64,000 nucleotides of DNA from Slackia piriformis YIT 12062 (GTDB lineage Bacteria; Actinomycetota; Coriobacteriia; Coriobacteriales; Eggerthellaceae), in assembly GCF_000296445.1 (NCBI RefSeq), contig NZ_JH815198.1:1489114-1553113 (forward strand), written 5' to 3'. Made by a program: the position numbers and the translations under genes. Of this stretch, positions 19,513 to 51,430 are shown one piece after another (position 1 is the first letter of the stretch; each line of letters starts with the position of its first letter). The notes beneath the pieces were generated by a model. It was not told the origin of the DNA. It was given only the letters and a program-made list of their open reading frames with translations, and ran no database searches.

Positions 19513-20808
19513 CTATTCCGTGGCGGCCTCTCCGAGATGAATGACGGATTCACGCAAAGCGGGGCAGGCCTTGAAGACAAATGCCTTCCCCTCGTGCTCT
19601 CTCACCAGGCACCCATGACGCTCTAGGTCAAGAAAATCCGCGCGAGCCGTTGCATAGGCAACGGCAAACGTACGCTGATGCGGGCCTATGCGCAATGCCG
19701 CATTCGGCTCCTTGCAAAGCGCCGAGATGATCGATTTTTGCCGGTCGTTCATAGGGAAATCGAACATGGCACCAATACGGTCGTTCAGGTTCTTAAGCTG
19801 GTAGAGCGTCTTCTCCAAACGATCGACCTCTTTGAGGTAGAACCTCGTGTACATAATGAAATACGACGTGAAGTCGAATCCGAAGCCGTAGTCGACCGAC
19901 CAGCTTTTAAAGACGGACTCCATCAGGGGGGTGTTAAGGTCTCCGAACGGATAGTACCCAACCGGAACCCAGCTCAGCACGGGATACCCCCATTTGATGG
20001 CAATGACGTTTCGCAGGAGCACTCCGACGAGGGAGTTCAGGCACGGGAATATGTCGAAGTTCCAGAAGTACCACGTTATGCTGATGATGCGCTGGATGGG
20101 ACCGAACCTCATCTCCCCTTCGTTTCCCATCCGAGCCCTGCGGCATATGGCATCGATGCATGAGGCGCTATCGGGAGGCTGAATCCGCTCATCGAGCGGA
20201 CAGACTTTTTCGCGACGCGGAATATTCTCCACGTCAACGCCCTCTATGAGTCGGTAATAAATCGTCTCGATAAGGCCGTAGGTAATCTCTCTCATGGCAA
20301 GCTCGTCGGCATTGCTGCTGATTTCGATATAGTTGCTGATAACACGGTCAAGCGGAGAGCGGGGAGTTCGTCTGCCGGCGAAAATATCGTGGATTCGCTC
20401 GTCTGAGACAAGCGCCCCTTCGGCTTCGAGGGCGCGGGCAAGCGTTCTTTCGATCGAACGCGTCAAAAAAGGAGAGCCCTTGAGGGCATCGATATCTCTA
20501 TCGAGCGGATAGCCCGTTTTGCAGCGAATCTCGAGCATCTTCGAATCGAGGGCAAGCGAAGTCGTGGTAACGAACCAGCAATCGGCCGATCGGTAGGGAT
20601 CATCGGGCAGAAACACGGCCGCCTGTTTGCGAATCGCGCTTAAAAGCCTCCACATGCTTTCTTTGTCGTAGCCTTCGGGAAGTTCATAGTCGTCTAAATC
20701 TTCGTAAAGCAGCAAGCCGACATCGGCCGCGGACCTCAGGCGACGAAGTCTCTCATCGTCCATAAGCGCCAAGATGTCTTCTTTTGCGCATTGCGGTCGC
20801 TCCTCCAT
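19513..20808 (-). CDS. Fic-fold protein with degenerate catalytic motif and C-terminal winged helix
   Basis: A 431-residue soluble protein. I read it as a Fic-family homologue. The part around residues 115-160 (SIERTLARALEAEG, then DRVISNYIEIS) resembles the N-terminal inhibitory region of Fic proteins, the middle (QRIISITWYFWNFDIFPCLN, then VGVLLRN and KWGYPVLSWVPVG) aligns with the region HPFxDGNGRxxRLL and the following helix, and the C-terminus (NDRQKSIISALC ... FLDLERHGCLV) looks like the winged-helix domain found behind many Fic domains. The catalytic His and the DGNGR loop are missing (FPCLNSLVG in their place), so AMP transfer is not expected. A DNA- or peptide-binding regulator is more likely. 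It is divergent from the small ORF at 20974, across an AT-rich region. Start ATG 20808 follows AGGGGGA. Confidence 0.6.
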   Translation of the reverse strand: MEERPQCAKEDILALMDDERLRRLRSAADVGLLLYEDLDDYELPEGYDKESMWRLLSAIRKQAAVFLPDDPYRSADCWFVTTTSLALDSKMLEIRCKTGYPLDRDIDALKGSPFLTRSIERTLARALEAEGALVSDERIHDIFAGRRTPRSPLDRVISNYIEISSNADELAMREITYGLIETIYYRLIEGVDVENIPRREKVCPLDERIQPPDSASCIDAICRRARMGNEGEMRFGPIQRIISITWYFWNFDIFPCLNSLVGVLLRNVIAIKWGYPVLSWVPVGYYPFGDLNTPLMESVFKSWSVDYGFGFDFTSYFIMYTRFYLKEVDRLEKTLYQLKNLNDRIGAMFDFPMNDRQKSIISALCKEPNAALRIGPHQRTFAVAYATARADFLDLERHGCLVREHEGKAFVFKACPALRESVIHLGEAATE

Positions 20809-20882
20809 TGCTTCCCCCTATCGACCACTTCCCCAAGGCCATAGCTCGAAAACAAACGCTCATCAGCGCATATCTTCATAAT

Positions 20883-20953
20883 GTACTATCAATCTCCATT
20901 AGAAGCATTATCAAATTAAATTATAGTACTTATCAATTTTTTAGATATTGATA
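20883..20953 (+). promoter_or_regulatory. Promoter and operator-like repeats in front of the small ORF
   Basis: On the plus strand a -35-like TTAGAA (20899-20904) lies 17 bases before a -10 TATAGT (20922-20927). Across the expected start site is an inverted repeat TATCAAT (20931-20937), nine bases, ATTGATA (20947-20953). The related sequences GTACTATCAAT (20883-20893) and GTACTTATCAAT (20926-20937) form a direct repeat. The segment is about 75 percent A+T, unlike its surroundings. It also lies upstream of the divergent Fic-like gene. Confidence 0.5.
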
Positions 20954-20973
20954 TAAGAAATGAGGAGGGTATA

Positions 20974-21126
20974 GTGAAGAGGTGCAGAGACAAGCTAGCT
21001 CCCAAGAAGGAGAAAGATATGAAGTCAAGCACCACCAACACCCATCACGAATCGGCGTTTTTCCACATTCTGGAAGCCATGGGCCTCGAAGGAAATAATT
21101 CCTGCTGGCCGGTAACGCTGCGCTAA
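20974..21126 (+). CDS. Small ORF of 50 (or 35) codons, unknown peptide
   Basis: The frame starts with a GTG at 20974, five bases after a perfect AGGAGG ribosome site. An internal ATG at 21019 also has an excellent site (AAGGAG, six bases), giving a 35-residue form. The long form begins MKRCRDKLAPKKEKD and is strongly basic; the shared part begins MKSSTTNTHHESAFFHILEA, continues MGLEGN and ends NSCWPVTLR with the only Trp near the end. It has no signal peptide and no recognisable domain. It has its own promoter-like region and is followed by a strong hairpin. It may be a secreted or processed signal peptide, a RiPP precursor or a small protein partner of the divergent Fic-like protein; none of this is shown. 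Confidence 0.5.
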   Translation: MKRCRDKLAPKKEKDMKSSTTNTHHESAFFHILEAMGLEGNNSCWPVTLR

Positions 21127-21163
21127 TTCGCCTCCTTAAAACCCAGGCGCAAGCCCGGTAAGC

Positions 21164-21207
21164 AGAAGCCCCTCGATCCGAAGCGACACACGGATCGAGG
21201 GGCTTCT
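21164..21207 (+). terminator. Perfect 17-bp hairpin after the small ORF
   Basis: AGAAGCCCCTCGATCCG (21164-21180) pairs without mismatch with 21191-21207 around a 10-base loop. No T tract follows on either strand, so it may be a strong pause or processing hairpin rather than a classical terminator. It lies 37 bases after the small ORF. Confidence 0.55.
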
Positions 21208-21323
21208 CGCATATCGAAAGCATGCCAAGGGCCTTGAGCAAGCGTATGCGACCACAGCAGCATCGTTAACACGGGGGACAGTCCACAAGCCATCAAAGGT
21301 TTGCCGTCCGCCGTCCTTCGGCG

Positions 21324-22475
21324 CTATCCAGCCAACGCGTTTGTTTCTTTCGCCGCTTCGGCGTCTTCACGCTCAAGAACCTTGCGCATAGCGGCGATTG
21401 CGCATTCGATCTGACCGTCATCAGGCTCACGCGTCGTAAGCTTCTGCATCTGCATACCAGGCCACAGAATAACCTTGACCAGGGGGTTTTCTGGATGGCT
21501 GCCCGCCCACTTCACCGTAATCTCATAGCTGATTCCAGCAATCACCGGCATCAAGGCGATGCGCACTGCGATGACAAGAGCAAGTTTGACAGGGCCGTCG
21601 GGCACGCCCCATGCCGCGATAAGCGCATTGAGGGGCGTGATTGTGTAGACCAGGATGGCAATAATCATGACCATGATAAGAAACGCCGTGCCGCACCGCA
21701 CATGAAGACGAGGGAAGCTTCTTGCGTTTTCCGGCGTAAGCGCAAGGCCGTGCTCGAAGCAATGGATGGTCTTATGCTCCGCACCGTGATAGCCGAACAT
21801 GCGCTTGATGTCCTCCATACGACCGATCAGCCATATGTAGAACACGAAAATGGCCACGCGCACGATGCCGTCTACGATATTCCAAGCAAGCGTGTTGCTG
21901 TCATACTCCCCCACGATGAAATTGGCTATGAGCGCCGGAGCGACAATGAAGAGCACCACGCCGAGCACTAGGCCGAGCACCATGGAAACGGCCATTTCCT
22001 TCTTGCCGAACTCGAGGGCAGCGTCTTCGGACGTCGCATCTTGCGATGCGACGTTACGGCTATCATCAGCAGAAACCCGGGAACGAGACGACGCCTCGCC
22101 TTCTGCAGAAAGCTCCAGGCGGTCTTCGCCATCCTGAACTTGACGCCGCGACGGCTCATCCTCCGAAGAGTCGGGCACGGCGTCGTCGTTAAACGCGTGG
22201 AGCGCGGCAATTTCGAGAGCCTTGTAGCCTAGAACCAAGCTCTCCACGAACGCGCGGCATCCGCGAACGATGGGCCAGTACAGCCAGCCGTTCTTTTTCT
22301 TACCGCTTGCAAGGTCGTGCTCCTCGACGTAGATCGAGCCGCTCGGCTCGCGCACGGCGGCAGCCCAGTTGTACTTGCCGCGCATCATCACGCCTTCAAT
22401 CAGAGCTTGACCGCCCACATGGGTCTTATGCGCGCCGTCTTCGGAGAAGGCGCGCTTCGTTTCGCTTTTCCTCAC
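21324..22475 (-). CDS. DUF1385 membrane protein
   Basis: A 383-residue protein with the DUF1385 signature: HVGGQALIEGVMMRGKYNWA near the start, a membrane part of about five helices and the conserved FGYHGAEHKTIHCFEHG with its His residues and SFPRLHVRCGTAFL. Biochemical function is unknown; the conserved His and Glu suggest a metal site. Between the N-terminal domain and the membrane part is a charged, low-complexity insert of about 60 residues (Ser/Asp/Glu/Arg). The likely start is a GTG at 22475 whose G is the last base of the thyX stop codon (TAGTG), pointing to coupled translation. Confidence 0.82.
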   Translation of the reverse strand: MRKSETKRAFSEDGAHKTHVGGQALIEGVMMRGKYNWAAAVREPSGSIYVEEHDLASGKKKNGWLYWPIVRGCRAFVESLVLGYKALEIAALHAFNDDAVPDSSEDEPSRRQVQDGEDRLELSAEGEASSRSRVSADDSRNVASQDATSEDAALEFGKKEMAVSMVLGLVLGVVLFIVAPALIANFIVGEYDSNTLAWNIVDGIVRVAIFVFYIWLIGRMEDIKRMFGYHGAEHKTIHCFEHGLALTPENARSFPRLHVRCGTAFLIMVMIIAILVYTITPLNALIAAWGVPDGPVKLALVIAVRIALMPVIAGISYEITVKWAGSHPENPLVKVILWPGMQMQKLTTREPDDGQIECAIAAMRKVLEREDAEAAKETNALAG

Positions 22476-23155
22476 TACGAACGCACCGCTTTCGGGTACG
22501 GTCTTCCGCAGGTCATCTTGCCTTCGCTGCAAGCACCGCGCACGCACGACGGGCCGGCGTCAAAAAACACATAGGGGGCCGTAGGGCGAACCAGCTCGAG
22601 CATCTTGTGGGCAAGTTCGCGGATTTCCCATTGGGCGCGATTGCAGCAGCGCAGCTCGAAGAAATGAAGGAGCTCGCGCACGTTCATGGTGACCACGATC
22701 TTCGTCTCGGCAGCGTTGGGAAGCAGATAGCGCGCATCCTCGGCGGGAACGCCGGCATCAAGAAGCTTCTGGTACGCTTCGACCGCAGCGTCCACAGCCT
22801 CGTCGAACAGCGCGCTCGCCTCTTCGTTTTCGGCGACGCTTGCCGGCTTTATCGTATTCAGCCCGTCCTTGAACTTCACATAGCGCTGCGACTGCTGATT
22901 GAAGCTTGCCAACCTGTGACGCACCAGCTGATGCGTCATCGCGCGGGAGACGCCGTCGATCGCAAACGTGTAGCTTACATGCTCAAGCGTCGAAAAATGA
23001 CCGCTCTTCATAATGGTAGAGAGCACGCTCTGAATTCTTTCGGGAGGCATGGTCTCCATGAGTTCGGATGCGCCGACGGGGGCATAGCACAGACGCGCCG
23101 CCGTGGCAATGGCGCGCTCGGGATCGGGAGTATGGTAAAGAAGTTCTACCTGCAT
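22475..23155 (-). CDS. thyX: Flavin-dependent thymidylate synthase ThyX
   Basis: A 226-residue FAD enzyme that makes dTMP from dUMP using methylenetetrahydrofolate and NADPH. The ThyX motif RHRLASFNQQSQRY matches RHRxxSxNxxSxRY, and HFSTLEHVSYTF and NVRELLHFFELRC are also typical. The start ATG at 23155 has GGAG eight bases upstream. The C-terminus is Cys-containing (PSCVRGACSEGKMTCG), a feature of some actinobacterial ThyX. No thyA is seen in the window. Confidence 0.95.
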   Translation of the reverse strand: MQVELLYHTPDPERAIATAARLCYAPVGASELMETMPPERIQSVLSTIMKSGHFSTLEHVSYTFAIDGVSRAMTHQLVRHRLASFNQQSQRYVKFKDGLNTIKPASVAENEEASALFDEAVDAAVEAYQKLLDAGVPAEDARYLLPNAAETKIVVTMNVRELLHFFELRCCNRAQWEIRELAHKMLELVRPTAPYVFFDAGPSCVRGACSEGKMTCGRPYPKAVRS

Positions 23156-37939: not shown

Positions 37940-38014
37940 GGGCGATTGGCGCAGCGGGAGCGCAGGTGCCTTACAAGCACAAGGTCGGGGGTTCAAATCC
38001 CTCATCGCCCACCA
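37940..38014 (+). tRNA. tRNA-Val (UAC anticodon)
   Basis: A 75-base cloverleaf with CCA encoded. The acceptor stem GGGCGAT/ATCGCCC, D stem GCGC/GCGC, the anticodon loop CTTACAA (anticodon TAC) and a T arm with TTCAAAT loop are complete. The anticodon stem GGTGC/GCACA has a G-A pair at its outer end. A strong terminator follows. Confidence 0.96.
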
Positions 38015-51325: not shown

Positions 51326-51430
51326 GTGCTACGGATAGGCATGGGCGCTCGTCAGCGGTCCCTTATGGCTGCTTCCTCCCGGACCTGACCAGGTTCGAAA
51401 CTTGGCGCCGCCCAAGCCCATCCGTAGCAC
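51326..51430 (-). ncRNA. ffs: Small signal recognition particle RNA (4.5S type)
   Basis: About 105 bases. On the minus strand the conserved apical part reads GGTCAGGTCCGGGAGGAAGC, followed by AGCC, the Ffh-binding domain. The ends GTGCTACGGATGGGC and GCCCATGCCTATCCGTAGCAC close the long hairpin. The exact ends are taken from that stem and may be off by a few bases. It lies just downstream of the last kinase gene. Confidence 0.95.

Follow-up and report, generated by a model that had tools for sequence, protein, structure and literature searches.

What role could be played by a Fic-like protein that lacks the catalytic residues of its kind and faces, across an AT-rich divergent region, a gene for a very small peptide? 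The locus that raises this question lies in a 64,000-nucleotide stretch of Slackia DNA, referred to here as the window. A preliminary description had pointed to a former enzyme with a DNA-binding domain, a shared operator, and a tiny ORF with its own promoter and a hairpin behind it, and had proposed a peptide-sensing switch or a toxin-antitoxin-like pair. The regulator and the intergenic elements beside it are the following:

19513 to 20808, (−) strand: Fic-derived, catalytically degenerate winged-helix regulator of 431 amino acids, from profile comparisons and the orthologue alignment
20887 to 20893, no strand: additional TATCAAT half-site between the operator and the regulator gene, with similar extras at orthologues
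20931 to 20953, no strand: candidate operator TATCAAT-TTTTTAGAT-ATTGATA, conserved and unique in the genome, with the −35 box in its right arm
20948 to 20975, (+) strand: promoter of the divergent RNA, with −35 TTGATA, a 16-nt spacer, and −10 TATAGT, and an expected start at about 20982

Judged by profile comparison, the regulator is a Fic-derived protein that has lost its active site and kept a C-terminal winged helix. A profile built from 22 relatives matched the Fido structure 8uqu with an E value of 2.4e-5, and FICD chains were matched in the same register. When hhalign was used to compare the regulator family with catalytically active Fic proteins from its own order, the result was 97.7% (E = 1.4e-12, 342 columns), and 95.7% for the Fic core alone, while reversed or shuffled controls gave 0.1 to 0.2%, with none above 0.2%. 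In the profile-profile alignment, residues 254 to 262 (FPCLNSLVG), which stand in place of HPFxDGNGR, lie opposite FxDGNGRTG of the active proteins, and the motif His and GNGR are absent from all 39 aligned family members. Orthologues alone did not match Fic significantly (5.1%), but paralogues did (98.0%, E = 3e-13) and the orthologues matched the paralogues (E = 1e-67), so that the Fic link of the orthologues is carried by the paralogues. The Pfam Fic model matched none of the 22 members. Pfam and NCBIfam searches with the regulator returned DeoR/AgaR-type winged-helix matches only, weak but in register, with the HTH_DeoR-like domain at residues 355 to 417, approximately; a similarly weak HTH_DeoR match was found in 11 of the 22 members, and hhalign placed the winged-helix columns of the family against those of Fic-winged-helix proteins. 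Because the AlphaFold model failed (pLDDT 36, pTM 0.25, with an alignment of the window and four Slackia loci), the fold is supported by profiles and not by structure. Both parts of the earlier reading of this protein, a Fic fold stripped of its catalytic residues and a winged helix at the C terminus, were borne out.

Fic proteins that act on DNA have been described. CccR, a Fic-HTH effector of Yersinia pseudotuberculosis, is an autorepressor that acts at an AT-rich palindrome in its promoter, and an H192A active-site mutant still represses, such that the catalytic His is dispensable for repression (PMC9755527). CccR resembles the window regulator in joining a Fic fold to a C-terminal HTH, but it has retained the Fic motif, as HPFGNGNGR, and acts as a secreted AMPylating toxin, whereas the motif has been lost throughout the window family and the partner of the window regulator is a small RNA/peptide gene. 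The class II Fic-winged-helix proteins CbFic2 and SoFic likewise combine a Fic domain with a DeoR-type winged helix; they are active enzymes, however, and CbFic2 binds DNA, with no dedicated operator shown for it (PMC10628234).

Orthologues of the regulator, with 50 to 81% identity, were found in 21 of 138 genomes of the bacterial family, spread over six genera, and in no further genome among 397 of the order, although these counts are inflated by closely related genomes and some of the genomes are drafts. The 21 orthologues form one clade, and the gene is single copy in its own 2.1-Mb genome. Collections of plasmids, phages, and viral contigs held no relatives of it. Open-access papers yielded no account of this locus or of small RNAs from the family, and we could not find a description of a dead-Fic regulator paired with a divergent small RNA or micropeptide gene.

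The repeats noted in the divergent region are present and recur: in each of the 21 genomes, the divergent promoter has its −35 box overlapped by an operator of the TATCAAT-n9-ATTGATA type, and its −10 box, usually TATAGT, lies at a nearly constant distance from the ATTGATA arm. The promoter-like elements ascribed to the small ORF are present as well. Operator and promoter together occur once in the 2.1-Mb genome, and a whole-genome search placed the operator and −10 box at the regulator in 21/21 genomes, with 0 to 2 matches to the reversed control pattern; the combination is therefore more than chance. A strict operator pattern matched in 14 of the 397 genomes of the order, every time at the orthologous locus, with 0 control matches. 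Leaving aside chance matches in likely coding sequence, such as the operator-like extras of G003 and G158, the regulator locus is the sole intergenic site in 19 of the 21 genomes. The other two, G159 and G160, have a second operator site, 21 and 32 kb from the regulator, which drives an unlinked mini-ORF. The conserved and unique palindrome is a candidate site of DNA binding by the regulator.

Downstream of the divergent promoter lie the following:

20982 to 21212, (+) strand: predicted stand-alone RNA of ~230 nt with a dual function (ORF, anti-Shine-Dalgarno element, terminator), from the promoter and locus comparison
21007 to 21012, (+) strand: Shine-Dalgarno sequence AAGGAG of the small ORF, conserved in L002 and L047
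21019 to 21126, (+) strand: 35-codon ORF from the ATG at 21019, encoding MKSSTTNTHHESAFFHILEAMGLEGNNSCWPVTLR and a stop, from the ORF list and dN/dS
21106 to 21126, (+) strand: conserved C terminus W-P-V-T-L-R-stop, present as WP[VI]xxR-stop in 13 genomes
21130 to 21137, (+) strand: anti-Shine-Dalgarno element GCCTCCTT, its CTCCTT predicted to be unpaired (0.96), from locus comparison and folding
21164 to 21207, no strand: terminator-like perfect 17-bp hairpin (21164 to 21180 with 21191 to 21207) with loop AAGCGACACA and equivalents in L047 to L050

Two ORFs had been considered in this region. The shorter one, of 35 codons, stands with its near-ideal ribosome site, as does the hairpin behind it. 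The 50-codon version has to be discarded because its GTG (20974 to 20976) sits in the −10 box (20970 to 20975), upstream of the expected start, and so cannot come from this promoter.

On codon-level comparison, the tiny peptide is genuinely conserved at the amino acid level. The window ORF ends in CWPVTLR-stop and the ORF of L047 in SWPVTMR-stop; dN/dS between the window ORF and its one long homologue, in Slackia, is about 0.26, an approximate value only, since the ORFs are short. A WP[VI]xxR-stop peptide lies under the operator in 13 of the 21 genomes: two are Slackia, that of the window included, nine belong to g6, and two to g66. All nine g6 genomes carry AAGGAGG or GAGGAGG and then M(S/G)DWP[VI][IV]IR-stop beside the regulator, while in the two g66 genomes the peptide site is under the same operator but unlinked from the regulator. 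In G159 and G160 this second site has the Shine-Dalgarno sequence GAGGAGG followed by ATGGACTGGCCCATCATCATTCGC-stop (MDWPIIIR-stop), and no regulator adjoins it (L125 at G159:C12:49462 and L126 at G160:C1:90479). Across the D-W-P-x-x-x-R-stop codons of the 11 mini-ORFs, 2, 0, and 6 sites vary at the first, second, and third codon positions, respectively, and the variable first positions are V/I differences. Of 396 genomes sampled from the phylum, only 2 matched the mini-ORF pattern, both of them g6 and carriers of the unit; in viral contigs, the pattern matched only stretches inside longer frames. A recognisable WPxxxR ORF was not found in the remaining eight genomes (three Slackia, g4, g8, g24, and G158). 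In the peptide-less Slackia the orthologue is 80% identical and the operator is kept.

The predicted RNA is about 80 to 230 nt long across the loci. In the window, the 35-codon ORF is followed by GCCTCCTT and then the terminator. CTCCTT occurs in all 12 non-g6 RNAs, against a chance expectation of 2 to 7% each, and in 11 of them its mean predicted unpaired probability is 0.58 to 1.00; in L047 the element is predicted to be paired (0.12). The g6 RNAs have the ORF and lack the element. In g4, g8, g24, and g66, CTCCTT forms a 3′ bulge past a small hairpin and inside an outer stem of 5 pairs, which is intact in 6/6 core sequences and whose paired bases vary in a compensatory manner (CCCAU/AUGGG, CCCGA/UCGGG, UUCAA/UUGAG, and CGCCG/CGGCG); in the inner hairpin, UGCC/GGCA gives way to CACC/GGUG. 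The Slackia RNAs have a weak hairpin between GCCTCCTT and the terminator. When the g6 RNAs were folded to a consensus, covariation was slight, with two compensatory pairs only, both in the terminator. The possibility that CCTCCTT is a Shine-Dalgarno sequence of the reverse strand was rejected because no start codon lies at a consistent spacing. Thus, no single product is universal, since g6 lacks the anti-Shine-Dalgarno element and eight genomes lack the peptide, yet at least one is present at 21/21 loci, and both are present in the window, G003, G159, and G160. A DUF1385 gene (21324 to 22547, (−) strand) converges on the RNA in the window and also occurs close to the unit in L048, as it probably does in L050; the terminator hairpin is probably bidirectional and common to the RNA and this gene.

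On the genomic evidence, a regulator whose dedicated output is a small RNA/micropeptide is the favoured reading, and we put at about 0.62 the probability that the locus is a self-contained unit of the SgrR/SgrS/SgrT kind, a dead-Fic regulator with a divergent dual-function RNA, assembled from unrelated parts. The regulator, a descendant of Fic AMP-transferases without their active site, would bind the palindromic operator, perhaps as a dimer, through its C-terminal winged helix and would most likely repress both its own gene and the divergent promoter, whose −35 box sits in the operator. Arrival of a signal, possibly a ligand sensed by the dead Fic domain, would lift repression, and the divergent promoter would then yield a small stable RNA. 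The exposed anti-Shine-Dalgarno segment of this RNA (GCCUCCUU) could pair with the ribosome-binding sites of target mRNAs, and the ORF upstream of it in the window genome would be translated into a peptide ending in WPVTLR. In the SgrR-SgrS-SgrT system of E. coli, the regulator, SgrR, is an activator and lies divergent from a dual-function RNA that holds an ORF, a Shine-Dalgarno-blocking segment, and a terminator. The layout in the window and L047 is the same, but we claim no homology: regulator, peptide, and RNA are unrelated, and the targets are known in E. coli. The 6C RNA and other C-rich actinobacterial small RNAs also have an exposed run of C-rich sequence capable of pairing with ribosome-binding sites; the window RNA differs from them in structure and in having a dedicated regulator, and the divergent RNA matched no Rfam family above the gathering score.

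The same observations could be read differently. If the WPxxxR peptide were the ligand of the dead Fic protein, bound in a Fic groove that had been kept, it would control the operator by induction or feedback. We consider this unlikely, although the peptide is conserved, always lies under the regulator's own operator, even where it is unlinked, and is restricted to the same genomes as the regulator. The peptide has no export signal, no gene of this kind was seen beside the reductase-linked relatives described below, within the stretches examined, and the eight genomes without a recognisable WPxxxR ORF nevertheless keep the orthologue and the operator. Peptide sensing is therefore possible but not required. 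The expected co-occurrence of regulator and small ORF holds in 13 of the 21 genomes and fails in 8, which does not support the peptide as the obligatory partner first envisaged. What 12 of the 21 loci, the window among them, have kept is a structured RNA with the anti-Shine-Dalgarno motif, a feature absent from the preliminary description.

We also doubt that the small RNA is the sole product, a mimic of the 16S 3′ end that blocks ribosome-binding sites, with the window ORF a chance or decaying passenger. The element does occur in 12 of the 21 loci, three of them Slackia loci that lack the ORF, and in L051 to L053 it reads CACCUCCUU / CACCTCCTT, which matches the 16S rRNA tail. However, conservation in g6 and g66 is at the level of the peptide, as is the dN/dS value in Slackia, and g6 carries the ORF without the anti-Shine-Dalgarno element.

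A type I toxin-antitoxin-like arrangement, in which base pairing between the anti-Shine-Dalgarno and Shine-Dalgarno sequences restrains synthesis of a toxic or ribosome-stalling mini-ORF peptide, seems very unlikely to us. AAGGAG and CUCCUU of the window are parts of a single RNA and can form a duplex (−8.8 kcal/mol), both RNAs of G159 and G160 are under one operator, and a paper on a type I toxin mRNA of H. pylori (PMC6733600) is a lead in this direction. On the other hand, neither a separate antisense RNA nor a hydrophobic toxin is apparent, nothing matched an Rfam RNA antitoxin, g6 again has the ORF alone, and the reading is further weakened because the collections searched gave no sign of the regulator unit on mobile elements. 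A protein toxin-antitoxin pair (Fic/Phd-Doc, FicTA) was rejected as well, no adjoining partner protein being kept across genera. Finally, it is barely credible that the ORF arose by chance and that the regulator is an ordinary autoregulated transcription factor whose neighbour has decayed: the full 35-codon ORF has one homologue only, but operator, promoter, and product are kept over six genera with controls near zero.

The preferred reading, a dead-Fic regulator with a divergent dual-function RNA, also has a wider family setting. Paralogues with 25 to 31% identity, from the same lineage and with the same degenerate Fic-winged-helix architecture, are mostly divergent to genes for Tat-signal FAD-binding reductases (L010, L011, L015, L018 to L021, L026, and L098 to L102), and PF00890 was found in 6/6 of the reductases tested. 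At many of these paralogues a related operator, AACTATCAAT..ATATTGACAGTT, covers the −35 box of the reductase promoter; their target differs in being the reductase gene. The window unit is a branch of this family with a small RNA/peptide gene in the reductase's place. Little is known about how respiratory reductases are controlled; degenerate-Fic winged-helix proteins may be a family of their regulators, with the reductase-divergent paralogues as candidates.

More tentatively, and at somewhat less than even odds, dead Fic enzymes may be signal-sensing repressors of an undescribed class of gut-bacterial regulons, one branch of which would use as alternative outputs a 16S-tail-mimicking RNA and an unprocessed, leaderless peptide of 8 or 9 residues, M(S)DWP[VI][IV]IR, which corresponds to the C terminus of the 35-residue peptide in the window. 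If so, an enzyme fold would have been turned into a dedicated family of transcription factors across a gut lineage of medical relevance. A defined unit of one operator, a small RNA, and a tiny peptide would then allow a conserved peptide of this size, which has no known role, to be tested directly.

Some smaller observations were made at these loci. The flavoprotein leader of L010 begins with GCCACCTCC and could pair with its own Shine-Dalgarno sequence, GGAGGC; a link between the anti-Shine-Dalgarno RNA and reductase leaders is possible. A frame in L025 (571 to 2046, (+) strand) contains RPFHVGNIYMAR, which is midway between the Fic motif and its counterpart in the degenerate family, and has a weak Pfam Fic match. 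A PLP-aminotransferase-like gene (MxNExMxGLGxEPSAIRELFAYG) lies 3′ of the regulator in several g4, g24, and g6 loci (L053, L054, L059, L062, and L064); because it is absent after the regulator in Slackia, we do not count it as a member of the unit. Elsewhere in the window, Rfam identified a bacterial small SRP RNA (51330 to 51423, (−) strand) and a tRNA gene (37940 to 38011, (+) strand).
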